Origin: Pseudomonadota bacterium
Lineage (GTDB): Bacteria > Pseudomonadota > Gammaproteobacteria > Burkholderiales > Burkholderiaceae_D
Assembly: GCA_021821365.1 (NCBI GenBank)
Contig: JAKACN010000025.1
Location: 1 to 32,528 of the forward strand
DNA: 32,528 nucleotides
Direction of reading: 5' to 3'
This document shows positions 28,301 to 32,528 of this stretch, in pieces. Every line of letters starts with the position of its first letter. Positions within the stretch are counted from its first letter, which is position 1. The notes below the pieces were generated by a model. The model was not told the DNA's origin and made no database searches. It saw only the letters and a list, made by a program, of their open reading frames with translations. The position numbers and the translations under genes were made by a program.

Positions 28301-30325
28301 TCAGATATCGACCGGATCCACTTCCAGCGTCCATTTCGCCCTGGTCTTCGTTGCGCGCAGCAGCGCAAGCCACTCCTTCAGAAACGCCTGCAGCGCGGGA
28401 CGCGAAGCGCACTCGACCAGCAGCTGCGCGCGGTCGACATTCGCCACGCGCGTCATGGTCATCGGGATCGGGTCGTTGATGACGATGCCGGGATGCTGCA
28501 GGCATTCGGCCGCCAGCTTCAGGAAGTCGAGCGCGGTGTCGAGCTCCTTCGCCTCCGCACGCAGCAGCGCCTGGTACAGGAAAGGCGGCAAGCCGGCCTG
28601 CTGCCGCTCTTCGAGCAGGCCGCTGGCAAAGCGATCGTAGTCGTGCGCCATCACGGCGCCGTACAAGGGATGCTGCGGATAGCGGGTCTGGATCAGGACT
28701 TCGCTGGCGCTGCCGCCCTCCTTCTGTCCGGCGCGGCCGGCCCGCCCCGAAACCTGCATGAGCTGCGCGAACAAGCGCTCGCTGGCGCGGTAATCGTGCG
28801 AGAACAGCGCAGTGTCCGGGTTCAGGATGCCGACCAGGGTGAGGTTGCGGAAGTCATGCCCCTTGGCCACCATCTGTGTGCCGATCAGGATGTCGACCTC
28901 GCCGCGGTGCACGCTATCGAACGCCGCCTGCGCGCTACCCTTGCGGCGCGTGGAGTCGGCGTCGATGCGCGTGATGCGCGCCTGCGGGAAGACGTTCTGC
29001 AGGCCCTCTTCGACGCGCTGGGTGCCGCGCCCGAGCGGTTGCAGGTCGACGTTGCCGCAAGTGGGGCAGTGCCGGGGAATACGCTGTTCGAGGCTGCAAT
29101 GGTGACAGCGCAGCCTGTGCTCCGGCTTGTGCAGCACCATGAAGGCGGTACAGCGCGGGCAGTTGCTGATCCAGCCGCAGGCATCGCAGGCGAGGACCGG
29201 CGCGTAGCCGCGGCGATTGAGGAACAGCAGCGACTGCTCGCCGCGTTCGAGCCGCAATTTCAGTGCAGCGACCAGGGTCGAGGTCATGCCTTCGGCGGGC
29301 TTGTCCCGCTCCATGTCGATCAGGCGCACTTTCGGCAGCACGGCGTCCTTCGACGCGCGCTCGCGCAATTCGAGCCTTCGATAGCGGCCGGACTGTGCGT
29401 GGTGCCAGGTCTCCAGCGAAGGCGTGGCAGATCCAAGCACGATGGGTATGCCAAGCTGGCGCGCGCGCCACACCGCAAGGTCGCGCGCCGAGTAGCGCAA
29501 GCCTTCCTGCTGCTTGTAGGACGGATCGTGCTCTTCGTCGACGATGATCAGCTTCAGGTGCGGCAACGATGCCAGGATCGCAAGCCGCGTGCCGAGGATG
29601 ATGCGCGCGCGGCCGAGATGGGCGGCCAGCCAGTGTGTCATGCGCTCGCCTTCCGCCAGTCCGCTGTGCAGAGTCGCAACATGGAGATTCGGGAAGCGCG
29701 CCCGCACGTTGTTTTCGAGCTGCGGCGTGAGGTTGATTTCCGGGACGAGGACCAGCACCTGCGCATCACCCTGCCGCGCGAGAATCTGCGCGGCTGCCTG
29801 CAGGTAGACCTCCGTCTTGCCGCTGCCGGTCACGCCATACAGCAGGATTGGGGTAAATTGCCTGGCGTCGGCAATGACGTTGGCGGCGTGCTGTTGCGCG
29901 GCATTGAGCAAGGGTGGCTGATCGGGAGTAGCGTCACGGGCGTTGTCCACCCTGGCGAGTTTTTTCAGGGCTCGGTCAAGCGCCACGGTCTTGGGTATCC
30001 GCAGGTTCTTCGGCAATCCGGGGATCGCGACCTCGCCCAGCGGTCTCTGGTAATAGTCGGCGGCAAATGCACACAATTCCAGCCAGGCGGGGGACAGGGG
30101 TGCGAGTTGCGTCCGTACAGCAATCACGTCCTTCAGCTTGTCGATCGGAACATCGGTTTTTTCGCGCACTGCCAGCACCAGCCCGATCACCTCGCGCCTG
30201 CCAAACGGCACCAGCACAAGCTGCCCGGCGCATGGCGCTGGCGCCCCGGCCTCGCCCGTCCAGCGATAGTCGAAACAGGTCGCGAGCGGGGTATCGAGCA
30301 CAACTTGCAGTATGGAATGTTCCAC
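28301..30325 (-). CDS. priA: Primosomal replication-restart helicase PriA
   Basis: 674 residues. 3' DNA-binding domain at the N-terminus, helicase core with Walker A VTGSGKTE, DEEH box (IIVDEEHD), and motifs IV-VI (NPDTALFSHDYRASERLFAQ, SGRAGR). The eight zinc Cys are present as CDACGWISNCPRC and CHHC/CPTC pairs. It reloads the replisome at stalled forks. The first codon is GTG (30325; VEHSILQVVLDTPL); no strong ribosome-binding site precedes it, but the alignment with the usual PriA start (LRVALDTPL-like) supports it. A palindrome AGGTA-T-TACCT lies at 30332-30342, 6 bases upstream of the start. The DnaA-box repeats begin immediately upstream. Confidence 0.95.
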   Translation of the reverse strand: MEHSILQVVLDTPLATCFDYRWTGEAGAPAPCAGQLVLVPFGRREVIGLVLAVREKTDVPIDKLKDVIAVRTQLAPLSPAWLELCAFAADYYQRPLGEVAIPGLPKNLRIPKTVALDRALKKLARVDNARDATPDQPPLLNAAQQHAANVIADARQFTPILLYGVTGSGKTEVYLQAAAQILARQGDAQVLVLVPEINLTPQLENNVRARFPNLHVATLHSGLAEGERMTHWLAAHLGRARIILGTRLAILASLPHLKLIIVDEEHDPSYKQQEGLRYSARDLAVWRARQLGIPIVLGSATPSLETWHHAQSGRYRRLELRERASKDAVLPKVRLIDMERDKPAEGMTSTLVAALKLRLERGEQSLLFLNRRGYAPVLACDACGWISNCPRCTAFMVLHKPEHRLRCHHCSLEQRIPRHCPTCGNVDLQPLGRGTQRVEEGLQNVFPQARITRIDADSTRRKGSAQAAFDSVHRGEVDILIGTQMVAKGHDFRNLTLVGILNPDTALFSHDYRASERLFAQLMQVSGRAGRAGQKEGGSASEVLIQTRYPQHPLYGAVMAHDYDRFASGLLEERQQAGLPPFLYQALLRAEAKELDTALDFLKLAAECLQHPGIVINDPIPMTMTRVANVDRAQLLVECASRPALQAFLKEWLALLRATKTRAKWTLEVDPVDI

Positions 30326-30330
30326 GACTT

Positions 30331-30605
30331 AAGGTATTACCTGAAAAGAGCGTCTAAATACACGTTTCATAAGGGCTTTTTCAGCTATCCACACAAGCTG
30401 TGGATAACTTTGTGGACAAGGAGCCCTTGACATCCGGAAACGCCTGATTTCATGCGGTTTTCATTACATTGCCCATTTGAAAAGCAAAAATATTTTGCTT
30501 AAAAATCAAAGACTTGAAAAGTCAAGCGCTGAGGCGAAAAAAAATTCTCGAAAAAAAGTTGTTGCCATGCACAAGCTTCCCCGACAACCGGTAAATGTGA
30601 ATAAG
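30331..30605 (+). repeat. Diverged direct repeat A of the priA upstream region
   Basis: Aligns with repeat B at 30763-31026 with an offset of ~421-432 bases. Shared blocks include CTAAAT, GCTTTTTCA, the DnaA-box pair, CTTGACA, an exact 20-mer starting CCTGATTTCATG (30443-30462), TTGAAAAGCAAAAAT (30477-30491) and GTGAATAAG. It is AT-rich, mostly outside coding sequence and starts at the priA start. Confidence 0.8.
30385..30419. promoter_or_regulatory. DnaA-box cluster A
   Basis: CTATCCACA (30385-30393, one mismatch), a 5-base spacer, TGTGGATAA (30399-30407, perfect on the complement of TTATCCACA) and TGTGGACAA (30411-30419, one mismatch). The first two are convergent, making an 8-bp inverted repeat. 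Clusters like this are typical of oriC and dnaA-promoter regions. Confidence 0.65.
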
Positions 30606-30762
30606 TCGCATGAAACTGGCCGCCGTTCGTTTCTTTCCGCTTACAAACCCTGACAAATTGCAAGCACTTTCTTGCAACCGGGAAAGATACTTCTAGCCGT
30701 GGCCGATAGGCAAGTCAACTATGGGAGCGCTTCAAAATAGTTGAAAGTCTTCTACAGGACCT

Positions 30763-31026
30763 CATGTAATTTTTGAAAAACCGATCTAAATGCCCGATTC
30801 AAAAGCGCTTTTTCAACTATCCACAAAGTCTGTGGATAACTTTGGGGACAACACCCTCTTGACACGCCGAAGGCCCTGATTTCATGCGGTTTTCGATAGA
30901 GTGCCAAATTGAAAAGCAAAAATTTTCCCCTTTAATTTCAATGCCTTATAAAAGTACTTCTTGGCAGAAAAATAGATCTGAATAAATAGTTTTGTTGCTA
31001 TGCAGAAGAGCGATTCTGTGAATAAG
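30763..31026 (+). repeat. Diverged direct repeat B of the priA upstream region
   Basis: Counterpart of repeat A. The exact 20-mer lies at 30875-30894 and TTGAAAAGCAAAAAT at 30909-30923. Indels and point changes are spread across it, but the DnaA-box pair and CTTGACA block are kept, suggesting selection on these parts. Confidence 0.8.
30817..30851. promoter_or_regulatory. DnaA-box cluster B
   Basis: CTATCCACA (30817-30825), 5-base spacer, TGTGGATAA (30831-30839, perfect) and a poorer TGGGGACAA (30843-30851, two mismatches). Same order and spacing as cluster A. Confidence 0.6.
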
Positions 31027-31133
31027 CCGATGGAAAGGCTGACAAAAACGATCTGGTATTTGCGGATCATCAATTCGGATTCTTGCAGCGGCAATGGGGG
31101 GCAAATAACACCTCTTGGTGTCCACGGACGACA
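31027..31133. other. AT-rich spacer between repeat B and the insertion sequence
   Basis: No gene. Contains GCAATGGGGGGC (31091-31102), which is complementary to GCCCCCCATTTGC just inside the predicted IS end. Short open frames here have no ribosome-binding site and no recognisable product. Confidence 0.4.
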
Positions 31134-31136
31134 TAC

Positions 31137-31148
31137 ATGGACGCCCCC
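31137..31148 (+). repeat. Right sub-terminal inverted repeat of the IS
   Basis: ATGGACGCCCCC, reading inward, matches the left repeat at 32508-32519 in 11 of 12 bases. Confidence 0.75.
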
Positions 31149-31395
31149 CATTTGCAAGGCTTTCAGTTCATGTCAGCGAGATAGGTGAAGATTGCAGCCA
31201 TACATCCGGACTTTTGGTGAGCTTGGCAGCTCTGTCCCTGATGGAATTTGCTGGTGGAGATCTGATCACGGAAGCGTGCTCAAGGCACCGTGTCTTTGCA
31301 AGATTTTCCCCACCCCGGTCCGACCTGTCCTGCCATCATTGCATGATTGCCCAAGCAACCGTTGGAGAGTGTTTCTGTTCCGTTTCCTTTATCGG
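31149..31395 (-). ncRNA. Candidate guide (seek/bridge) RNA region of the IS
   Basis: About 247 bases between the transposase stop and the right inverted repeat hold no gene. In IS1111 elements this position encodes a short RNA that directs target choice. The exact limits and the guide loops cannot be set from a single copy. Placed on the transposase strand because that is the known arrangement. Confidence 0.4.
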
Positions 31396-32439
31396 TTAAA
31401 TCGGCCGGGCTGATCGTGCGAACGCATGATCAGCCCGGAACTCGGATTGATGCGCCAGGAGTGCCCACGCAATCCGGGCATTCTTGTTGGCCTGCGCCAC
31501 CGTCGCGATATTGCGGTTGCGTCGTATCAGCAGACGTTCAAGCCAGGTCCCGGTCGGTTCGGCCCTGGTCAACACCGTTCGCACCACCGAACGCGCGCCG
31601 TGAATCAGTAACATGCGCAAATAACTGTCGCCGCGTTTGCTGATGCCCAGCAGGCCGGGCTTGCCGCCCGTGGAATGCTGGCGCGGCACCAGTCCCAGCC
31701 ATGCCGCCATTTGCCGCCCATTCTTGAAACACCGGGCATCGCCCACGGACGCGACCAGGGCGCTGGCCGTCAGCGGGCCGATGCCGGGAATCTGCGCCAA
31801 TGTGCAGCTGGCCTGGTTGTCGTGATGCCAGCGCCGGATTTGCTGCTCCAGTGCGTCGATTTGCGTGCCCAGCTCCTTGAGATGATCCAGCAGGCGAGCA
31901 ATGAGCTGCTGGAAACAGGCGGGCACCGCATCGGACTGGTCTGCCAGCAACTGGGGAACATCGTGAACCAGATGGCCGATCCCCTGGATAACGGCGATGC
32001 CGTATTCCGCCAGCAAACCGCGAATCTGGTTGGCTTGCGCTGTCCTTGCCTTGACGAATCCCTGGCGCGCGCGGTGCAGGCTGAGCAAGGCTTGTTGCTC
32101 GACACTCTTGATCGGAACGAAACGCATGTTCTTGCGGCCGACTGCTTCGCATATCGCCTCGGCATCGGCCATGTCGTTCTTATTGGTCTTGACGTAGGGC
32201 TTGACGAATTGCGGCGCCATCAACTTCACGGTGTGTCCCCATTCCTGCAATTTTCTCGCCCAATGATGCGCACTGCCACAGGCTTCCATGCCGATCAGGC
32301 ATGGCGGCAACTTGATAAAGAACGTCGCGACCTGGTCGCGCCCGAGCCGTTTTTTCAACACCGTATGACCTTGCGCATCGACCCCGTGCAGCTGGATACA
32401 ATTCTTCGCCAAATCGACGCCGATTGTCGTAATCTTCAT
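31396..32439 (-). CDS. IS110-family transposase (DEDD + Tnp_20), IS1111 type
   Basis: 347-residue intact recombinase. N-terminal RuvC-like DEDD domain with D9 (IGVDLAK), E52 (GMEACGSAHHW), D89 and D92 (NKNDMADAEA), and C-terminal Transposase_20 domain with IPGIGPLTASALVASVGD and QHSTGGKPGLLGISKRGDSYLR, which holds the candidate catalytic Ser. No frameshift or stop was seen, so it may be active. AAAGGAGG lies 9 bases before the ATG at 32439, but this site is complementary to the left inverted repeat and could be masked in a transcript read from outside the element. Confidence 0.93.
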   Translation of the reverse strand: MKITTIGVDLAKNCIQLHGVDAQGHTVLKKRLGRDQVATFFIKLPPCLIGMEACGSAHHWARKLQEWGHTVKLMAPQFVKPYVKTNKNDMADAEAICEAVGRKNMRFVPIKSVEQQALLSLHRARQGFVKARTAQANQIRGLLAEYGIAVIQGIGHLVHDVPQLLADQSDAVPACFQQLIARLLDHLKELGTQIDALEQQIRRWHHDNQASCTLAQIPGIGPLTASALVASVGDARCFKNGRQMAAWLGLVPRQHSTGGKPGLLGISKRGDSYLRMLLIHGARSVVRTVLTRAEPTGTWLERLLIRRNRNIATVAQANKNARIAWALLAHQSEFRADHAFARSARPI

Positions 32440-32442
32440 TTT

Positions 32443-32458
32443 GGATGCCTCCTTTTCA
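32443..32458 (-). promoter_or_regulatory. Transposase ribosome-binding site within a hairpin arm
   Basis: Minus-strand TGAAAAGGAGGCATCC (32458-32443) carries the Shine-Dalgarno AAAGGAGG. It is complementary, with one mismatch and one bulge, to GGACGCCTCCTTTCA at 32517-32503, which overlaps the left inverted repeat. Confidence 0.65.
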
Positions 32459-32507
32459 AGGTGGTTGGTGACAACTCCACTTTGGCACTCAGATGCCGTT
32501 TCTGAAA

Positions 32508-32519
32508 GGAGGCGTCCAT
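32508..32519 (-). repeat. Left sub-terminal inverted repeat of the IS
   Basis: ATGGACGCCTCC read inward on the minus strand; partner of 31137-31148 (11 of 12 bases). Confidence 0.75.
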
Positions 32520-32528
32520 TCCATTACG

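Follow-up and report, generated by a model that had tools for sequence, protein, structure and literature searches.

The stretch of DNA upstream of priA is probably a tandem pair of DARS2-type, IHF-dependent elements which would turn ADP-DnaA into ATP-DnaA, an assignment that covers class and function jointly and that was made on DnaA boxes and IHF sites. Recharging of DnaA at DARS has been worked out in E. coli. The anatomy of the two modules, i.e. their arrangement, spacing and conservation, is read directly from the sequences, and the genes of Hda and IHF alpha are present.

Two box-bearing repeats upstream of priA

The window, i.e. the whole stretch of DNA that was analysed, is the entire contig JAKACN010000025.1 (32,528 nucleotides). 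The gene of the replication restart helicase PriA was identified at 28301..30325 on the minus strand (TIGR00595, 560 bits for a cut-off of 230.35), and upstream of it lie two repeats which have diverged from each other. A repeat search of the window gave a direct repeat of 198 nucleotides (30323-30520 and 30755-30952, 74% identity) and an additional block at 30596-30615 and 31017-31036 (80% identity). With these blocks, the whole priA-proximal repeat, module 1, extends over 30323..30615 and the distal one, module 2, over 30755..31036, both on the plus strand. By reading the sequence we observed that the exact 20-mer CCTGATTTCATGCGGTTTTC and the motif CTTGACA are common to both. The region is AT-rich (GC content of 0.478 over 30001-31000), and four of the five TTWTNCACA DnaA boxes of the window fall within the repeat stretch; the shuffled window contained a mean of 0.71 such boxes and none of 100 shuffles reached five. 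The repeats with their 20-mer, CTTGACA and paired boxes, as announced in a preliminary description of this DNA, are therefore real.

In each repeat the series of boxes is CTATCCACA, 5 bp, TGTGGATAA, 3 bp and TGTGGACAA, the third box being TGGGGACAA in module 2. Box I of module 1 (CTATCCACA, 30385..30393, plus strand) gives position 0 of the DARS core. Box II (TGTGGATAA, 30399..30407, minus strand) is opposed to box I across a gap of 5 bp and starts at +14, and box III (TGTGGACAA, 30411..30419, minus strand), 3 bp past box II, starts at +26, both starts being those of the two E. coli sites, DARS1 and DARS2. In module 2, box I (CTATCCACA) was found at 30817..30825 on the plus strand by sequence reading and core search, and box II (TGTGGATAA) at 30831..30839 on the minus strand by box scan and core search, while sequence reading gave a degenerate box III at 30843..30851 on the minus strand (TGGGGACAA, two mismatches to TGTGGATAA). 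Box III of each module is the "weaker box" of the preliminary description.

Two further sites belong to each repeat. Beyond what the preliminary description had noticed, a consensus scan detected an IHF consensus in module 1 (AATCAAAGACTTG, 9/9, 30504..30516, plus strand) and an IHF-like site in module 2 (TTTCAATGCCTTA, 8/9, 30936..30948, plus strand), both at an offset of +119. A box scan then gave a fourth DnaA box (TGTGAATAA) on the minus strand at 30596..30604 in module 1 (offset +211) and at 31017..31025 in module 2 (offset +200); this box IV is a constant part of the module.

The question of further copies in the genome, raised in the preliminary description, received a double answer: at its full length of 701 bases the stretch is single, matching only itself, but a further core with an IHF site lies in the same genome beside xseA, whose identity was confirmed.

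Several other features of this part of the contig were noted. The CTTGACA motif and the TTTCATGCGG block that follows it (30425-30460 and 30858-30893) are seen again in many of the family's modules and face away from priA. An IS110-family transposase gene (31396-32439) closes the contig, as part of an IS110-family element in 31115-32528 of the window; from near 31115 onwards, about 90 bp past box IV of module 2, the DNA also occurs at other places in the genome. Since this insertion element ends the contig, hemE, which adjoins the priA-linked modules in the relative G003, is absent from the window. An Rfam scan of 30000-32528 gave no match at E values up to 1.

Comparison with E. coli DARS1 and DARS2

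We observed that the boxes start at 0, +14 and +26 in E. coli DARS1 (NC_000913.3, 813107), in DARS2 (2969135) and in both modules of the window. The box geometry thus matches exactly that of DARS, which the preliminary description had not considered: three boxes, with box I opposed to boxes II and III, at the E. coli spacing, box III of module 2 being weak. The same spacing in DARS1 and DARS2, and the opposition of box I to boxes II and III, are described in the excerpt of the review PMC5742627. The core at 2969135 is the published DARS2 core, because the DARS2 deletion primers given in the excerpt of PMC4585315 flank it; for the same reason another candidate, at 2969451, was rejected as the DARS2 core. 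The stretch at 2969451-2969582 of NC_000913.3, which is 316 bp away from the DARS2 core, is a weaker core-like sequence whose IHF-like AATCAGAGAATTG stands at exactly +119; it is possibly a decayed second module, like the tandem of the window.

As in DARS2, an IHF site lies downstream of the core in the same orientation and at a set distance, but this distance differs. E. coli DARS2 has two IHF sites, 13-mers separated by 3 bp according to the excerpt of PMC4245941, and we recognised them at +93 and +109 from box I; the second one, IBS2, is at +109 where the window has +119, so that the window site is about one helical turn farther out. In addition, each module of the window has a single IHF site where DARS2 has the pair IBS1 and IBS2. 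In E. coli, IHF sites moved by 5 bp towards the Fis sites were only partly effective and those moved by 10 bp were moderately effective (PMC4245941, excerpt), which agrees with the natural difference of about one turn.

Other differences from DARS2 are the presence of box IV beyond the IHF site, the two tandem modules and the surroundings. E. coli DARS1 and DARS2 are both between oriC and terC, and DARS2, which is upstream of mutH, needs the Fis sites FBS2-3 placed after its IHF sites. In contrast, the window element is beside priA and near the presumed origin, as seen in the relatives G003 and G015; chromosomal place is however a matter of location, outside the functional definition of DARS2. 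DARS1 has, besides the identical orientation and spacing of boxes, an identical box II (TGTGGATAA) and, like the window element, adjoins a DNA-repair gene; its best IHF-like match near the +119 distance reaches only 7/9, at +121. The gene neighbours of both E. coli sites differ from those of the window element.

Conservation of the core, the IHF site and box IV upstream of priA

We searched for cores in 80 named PriA loci, the best 80 of 581 relatives, taking 2 kb of DNA upstream of the gene. At least one core, always in the same orientation, was present in 49 of these 80 loci: 24 of them have one core, 24 have two (364-457 bp apart) and Herminiimonas fonticola has three. Two Ralstonia loci and one Cupriavidus locus are among those with a single core. 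At the thresholds used, no core was detected in the other 31 loci, one of which had just 145 upstream bases; five of the 31 belong to the closest relatives (ES-bin-46, Keguizhuia sedimenti, Massilia niastensis, B12_bin-2784 and Massilia timonae) and the others are more distant. The core search gave no match in 894,157 flanking bases or in 20 base shuffles, and each of the alternative box spacings that we tried occurred in at most two of the 80 loci. DNA similarity to the region was detected in 41 of 60 genomes, own genome included, with some of the matches away from priA; by rank, it concerned 15/15 members of the genus, 19/21 other members of the family and 7/24 other members of the order. 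Conservation of the spacing is owed in part to shared descent.

The IHF site was then monitored in 77 modules, 75 from the named PriA loci and the two of the window, counting the consensus WATCAANNNNTTR at 8/9 or better. It was present at +118 to +120 in 76 of the 77, while any other forward offset gave a match in at most four modules and any reverse offset in at most seven. Box IV, taken as a reverse box at +178 to +211 with at most one mismatch to TGTGGATAA, was also found in 76 of the 77 priA modules. In these 76 modules the distances from IHF site to box IV cluster at 60-61, 69-73, 79-83 and 91-92, and the vector length R is 0.88 for a period of 10.5, the largest of the periods tried (0.85 at 10 and 0.86 at 11). 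In 37 modules of a wider set the clusters are at 71-73, 81-85 and 92-94, with R of 0.85 at 11 and 0.84 at 10.5. The distances of box IV thus step by about one helical turn, which is to be read as a pattern and not as a probability, the sequences being related; this suggests that a DnaA molecule bound to box IV would have to keep its face towards the bent core.

Distribution beyond priA

The core alone, with up to two mismatches, was found in at least 53 of 60 relatives, own genome included; in this search at least one control match, in G028, was among the matches listed. We then used a strict composite pattern, in which the core is followed by ATCAANNNNTTR within a 30-bp range. It matched 74 of 300 genomes drawn from the order, 87 of 369 from the class and 25 of 299 from the phylum, the own genome being counted in all three draws and some other genomes being shared between them, and the reversed pattern gave no match in any of the three draws. 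Eight of the matching genomes of the phylum draw are from other classes, seven of these from one family.

A set of 67 wider copies, spread over many families, was assembled from 60 copies hand-chosen among the composite matches and from seven of ten further loci, leaving out two duplicates and the window; since genomes with several matches are over-represented, the fractions in this set are no estimates of frequency. The IHF offset was 117-122 in 64 copies, 124 in one and 109, as for E. coli IBS2, in two, for a pattern that allowed a 30-bp range. In this hand-chosen set, box IV was present in 42 of the 67 copies and not found in 25. Two neighbours recur. Of the 67 hand-chosen copies, 21 adjoin priA and turn their core end to it (in 20 the open frame is less than about 225 bp away, in one a partial frame is at 634 bp), and nine adjoin xseA, to which they turn their IHF end.

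Eight single-core loci elsewhere in the genus (L149-L154, L163 and L164) have an IHF match at +119 or +120, and box IV was not found in these eight. Six of them are the xseA locus, recognised in five cases from a called frame of xseA and in one from the adjacent genes; the other neighbours at this locus are, by eye, exbB/D-like genes, lpxK and kdsB. In four relatives of other genera (L155, L159, L161 and L162) the xseA locus contains rows of 4 to 8 DARS-like cores, with an IHF site only at the last core in two of the four arrays and none found in the other two. In two relatives (L158 and L160), a core-plus-IHF pair about 3.5 kb apart flanks a UvrD/Rep-like helicase gene (by eye). No core of DARS geometry was detected in 22 dnaA loci from 21 genomes.

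We tentatively suggest, and would stop short of calling it probable, that these modules are the common form of DARS in the class to which both the Burkholderiales and the classical gammaproteobacteria belong, and in at least one further family of the phylum beyond that class. This form would have a core with IHF at +118 to +121 and would be kept by priA (often with a helically phased box IV) and by xseA. A genome would have one copy or several, in some cases as arrays whose cores share a single IHF site. E. coli DARS2, in which IHF is one turn closer and Fis has been added, would be derived from this form. Statements on the spread of DARS vary among sources, each known here from excerpts: the DARS2 core is said to be conserved specifically among E. 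coli-related gammaproteobacteria (PMC4245941), DARS is attributed to E. coli-proximal beta- or gammaproteobacteria having IHF and Fis in one review (PMC5742627) and to many proteobacterial species in another (PMC10380432). Our literature search, with the primary DARS paper (Fujimitsu 2009) outside its scope, found nothing joining DARS with betaproteobacteria and nothing for a DnaA box "upstream of priA". With the sequence rule, a core with IHF at +118 to +121, such sites are picked up in distant families; they recur beside two genes and have a fourth box in helical phase. The rule makes it testable whether these bacteria generally recharge their initiator, and in what way the bent complex is assembled.

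Proposed mechanism

Hda (230.5 bits for a cut-off of 194.8) and IHF alpha (157.2 bits for a cut-off of 120.25) are encoded, which makes both a pool of ADP-DnaA and a bend by IHF plausible. Boxes I and II would bring two ADP-DnaA molecules head to head, and box III would bring in another DnaA. The IHF bend would then let the DnaA on box IV, or on the neighbouring module, touch the core complex, a role of box IV that we infer. The core complex would release ADP, apo-DnaA would leave and rebind ATP, and the level of ATP-DnaA would be raised ahead of the next initiation. For the binding of DnaA and IHF, the bending, the release of ADP and the timing, this scheme relies on the work in E. coli, where the excerpts of PMC4245941, PMC8682772 and PMC10380432 describe a loss of ADP on the opposed boxes I and II which IHF activates.

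The assignment to DARS2 also has points against it, namely the degenerate box III of module 2, the failure to detect a core, at the thresholds used, in 31 of the 80 PriA loci (the best 80 of 581 relatives), the place near the presumed origin and the different neighbours. To these are added the 25 of 67 hand-chosen copies and the eight single-core loci in which box IV was not found, the control match of the core-only search, the part of shared descent in the conserved spacing, and the boxes on either side of an IHF site, which are reminiscent of datA.

DnaA titration and control of priA

Among the other functions that we considered, a datA-like site is unlikely but survives best. At such a site the boxes around an IHF bend would retain ATP-DnaA and favour its hydrolysis, or would simply titrate DnaA near the origin. 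The DnaA boxes of the window do flank the IHF site, as those of datA do, and in G003 and G015 the locus is close to the presumed origin, just as datA is near oriC in E. coli (PMC10380432, excerpt). However, datA consists of boxes around one IHF site without an opposed 5-bp pair, whereas the window has such a pair; in the E. coli datA region that we fetched, neither a core of DARS geometry nor an opposed pair with a 5-bp gap was found, and the gene neighbours are different. The head-to-head pair of boxes I and II is moreover described as characteristic of DARS in the excerpt of PMC10380432, and the eight single-core loci of the genus keep the core and the IHF site without box IV.

We consider it less likely still that the stretch is a DnaA-controlled promoter or operator region of priA, as the preliminary description had proposed among its options. 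Such a role would fit the core upstream of priA in 49 of the 80 named loci (the best 80 of 581) and the 21 of 67 wider copies that adjoin priA, and E. coli DARS1 is itself located between bioD and uvrB. The proposal is weakened by the orientation of the signals: the two promoter-like matches, for 1.0 expected from shuffles, are both on the plus strand, opposite to priA, and the CTTGACA block points away from the gene. In addition, the core end is towards priA in 21/21 copies and the IHF end towards xseA in 9/9, and a 290-bp IHF-spaced tandem module exceeds the needs of an operator. The broader idea of the preliminary description, a DnaA-binding regulatory element adjoining priA near the origin region, is supported.

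Position relative to the origin of replication

The origin oriC probably corresponds to another conserved site, which in the relative G003 is located about 11 kb upstream of gidA. At this locus DnaA boxes lie beside TAGTAGTAG-type repeats, which we take to be DnaA-trio-like. With the G003 copy as query, 15 of 40 genomes matched, one of them from elsewhere in the family and 14 from the genus (out of its 15, with the own genome and G003 itself counted); the own genome carries the locus on another contig. In G003 this presumed origin occupies 4.057-4.060 Mb, with about 29 kb between it and the priA-linked modules. After gidA come gidB, a parA-like gene and parB, then atp genes, hemE, the modules and finally priA, gidB and the atp genes being named by eye.

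The preliminary description had also proposed to check the positions of dnaA and of the GC-skew minimum. The gene dnaA is elsewhere, on another contig in the own genome and about 183 kb from the modules in G003, and in G015 the cumulative skew is still rising through dnaA, which is therefore off the turning point. The skew itself is noisy in G003 and G015 and gives only a broad turning region with the modules inside it, so that it fits an origin anywhere in this region.

That the stretch is the chromosomal oriC or a duplicated piece of it is thus very improbable in spite of its AT-richness, DnaA boxes and IHF sites, its proximity to gidA-par-atp in G003 and its place inside the skew turning region, since TAGTAGTAG-type repeats were not found in it but lie beside DnaA boxes at the other conserved locus, in the own genome too, since modules are present at several places in genomes, e.g. 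at xseA, where an origin would be one locus at the skew minimum with a DnaA-trio or unwinding element by its boxes, and since the boxes of oriC are described as head-to-tail and boxes I and II of DARS as head-to-head (PMC10380432, excerpt). In G003 the presumed origin has two inverted copies, which flank a lysR-type and an aldehyde dehydrogenase gene (by eye).
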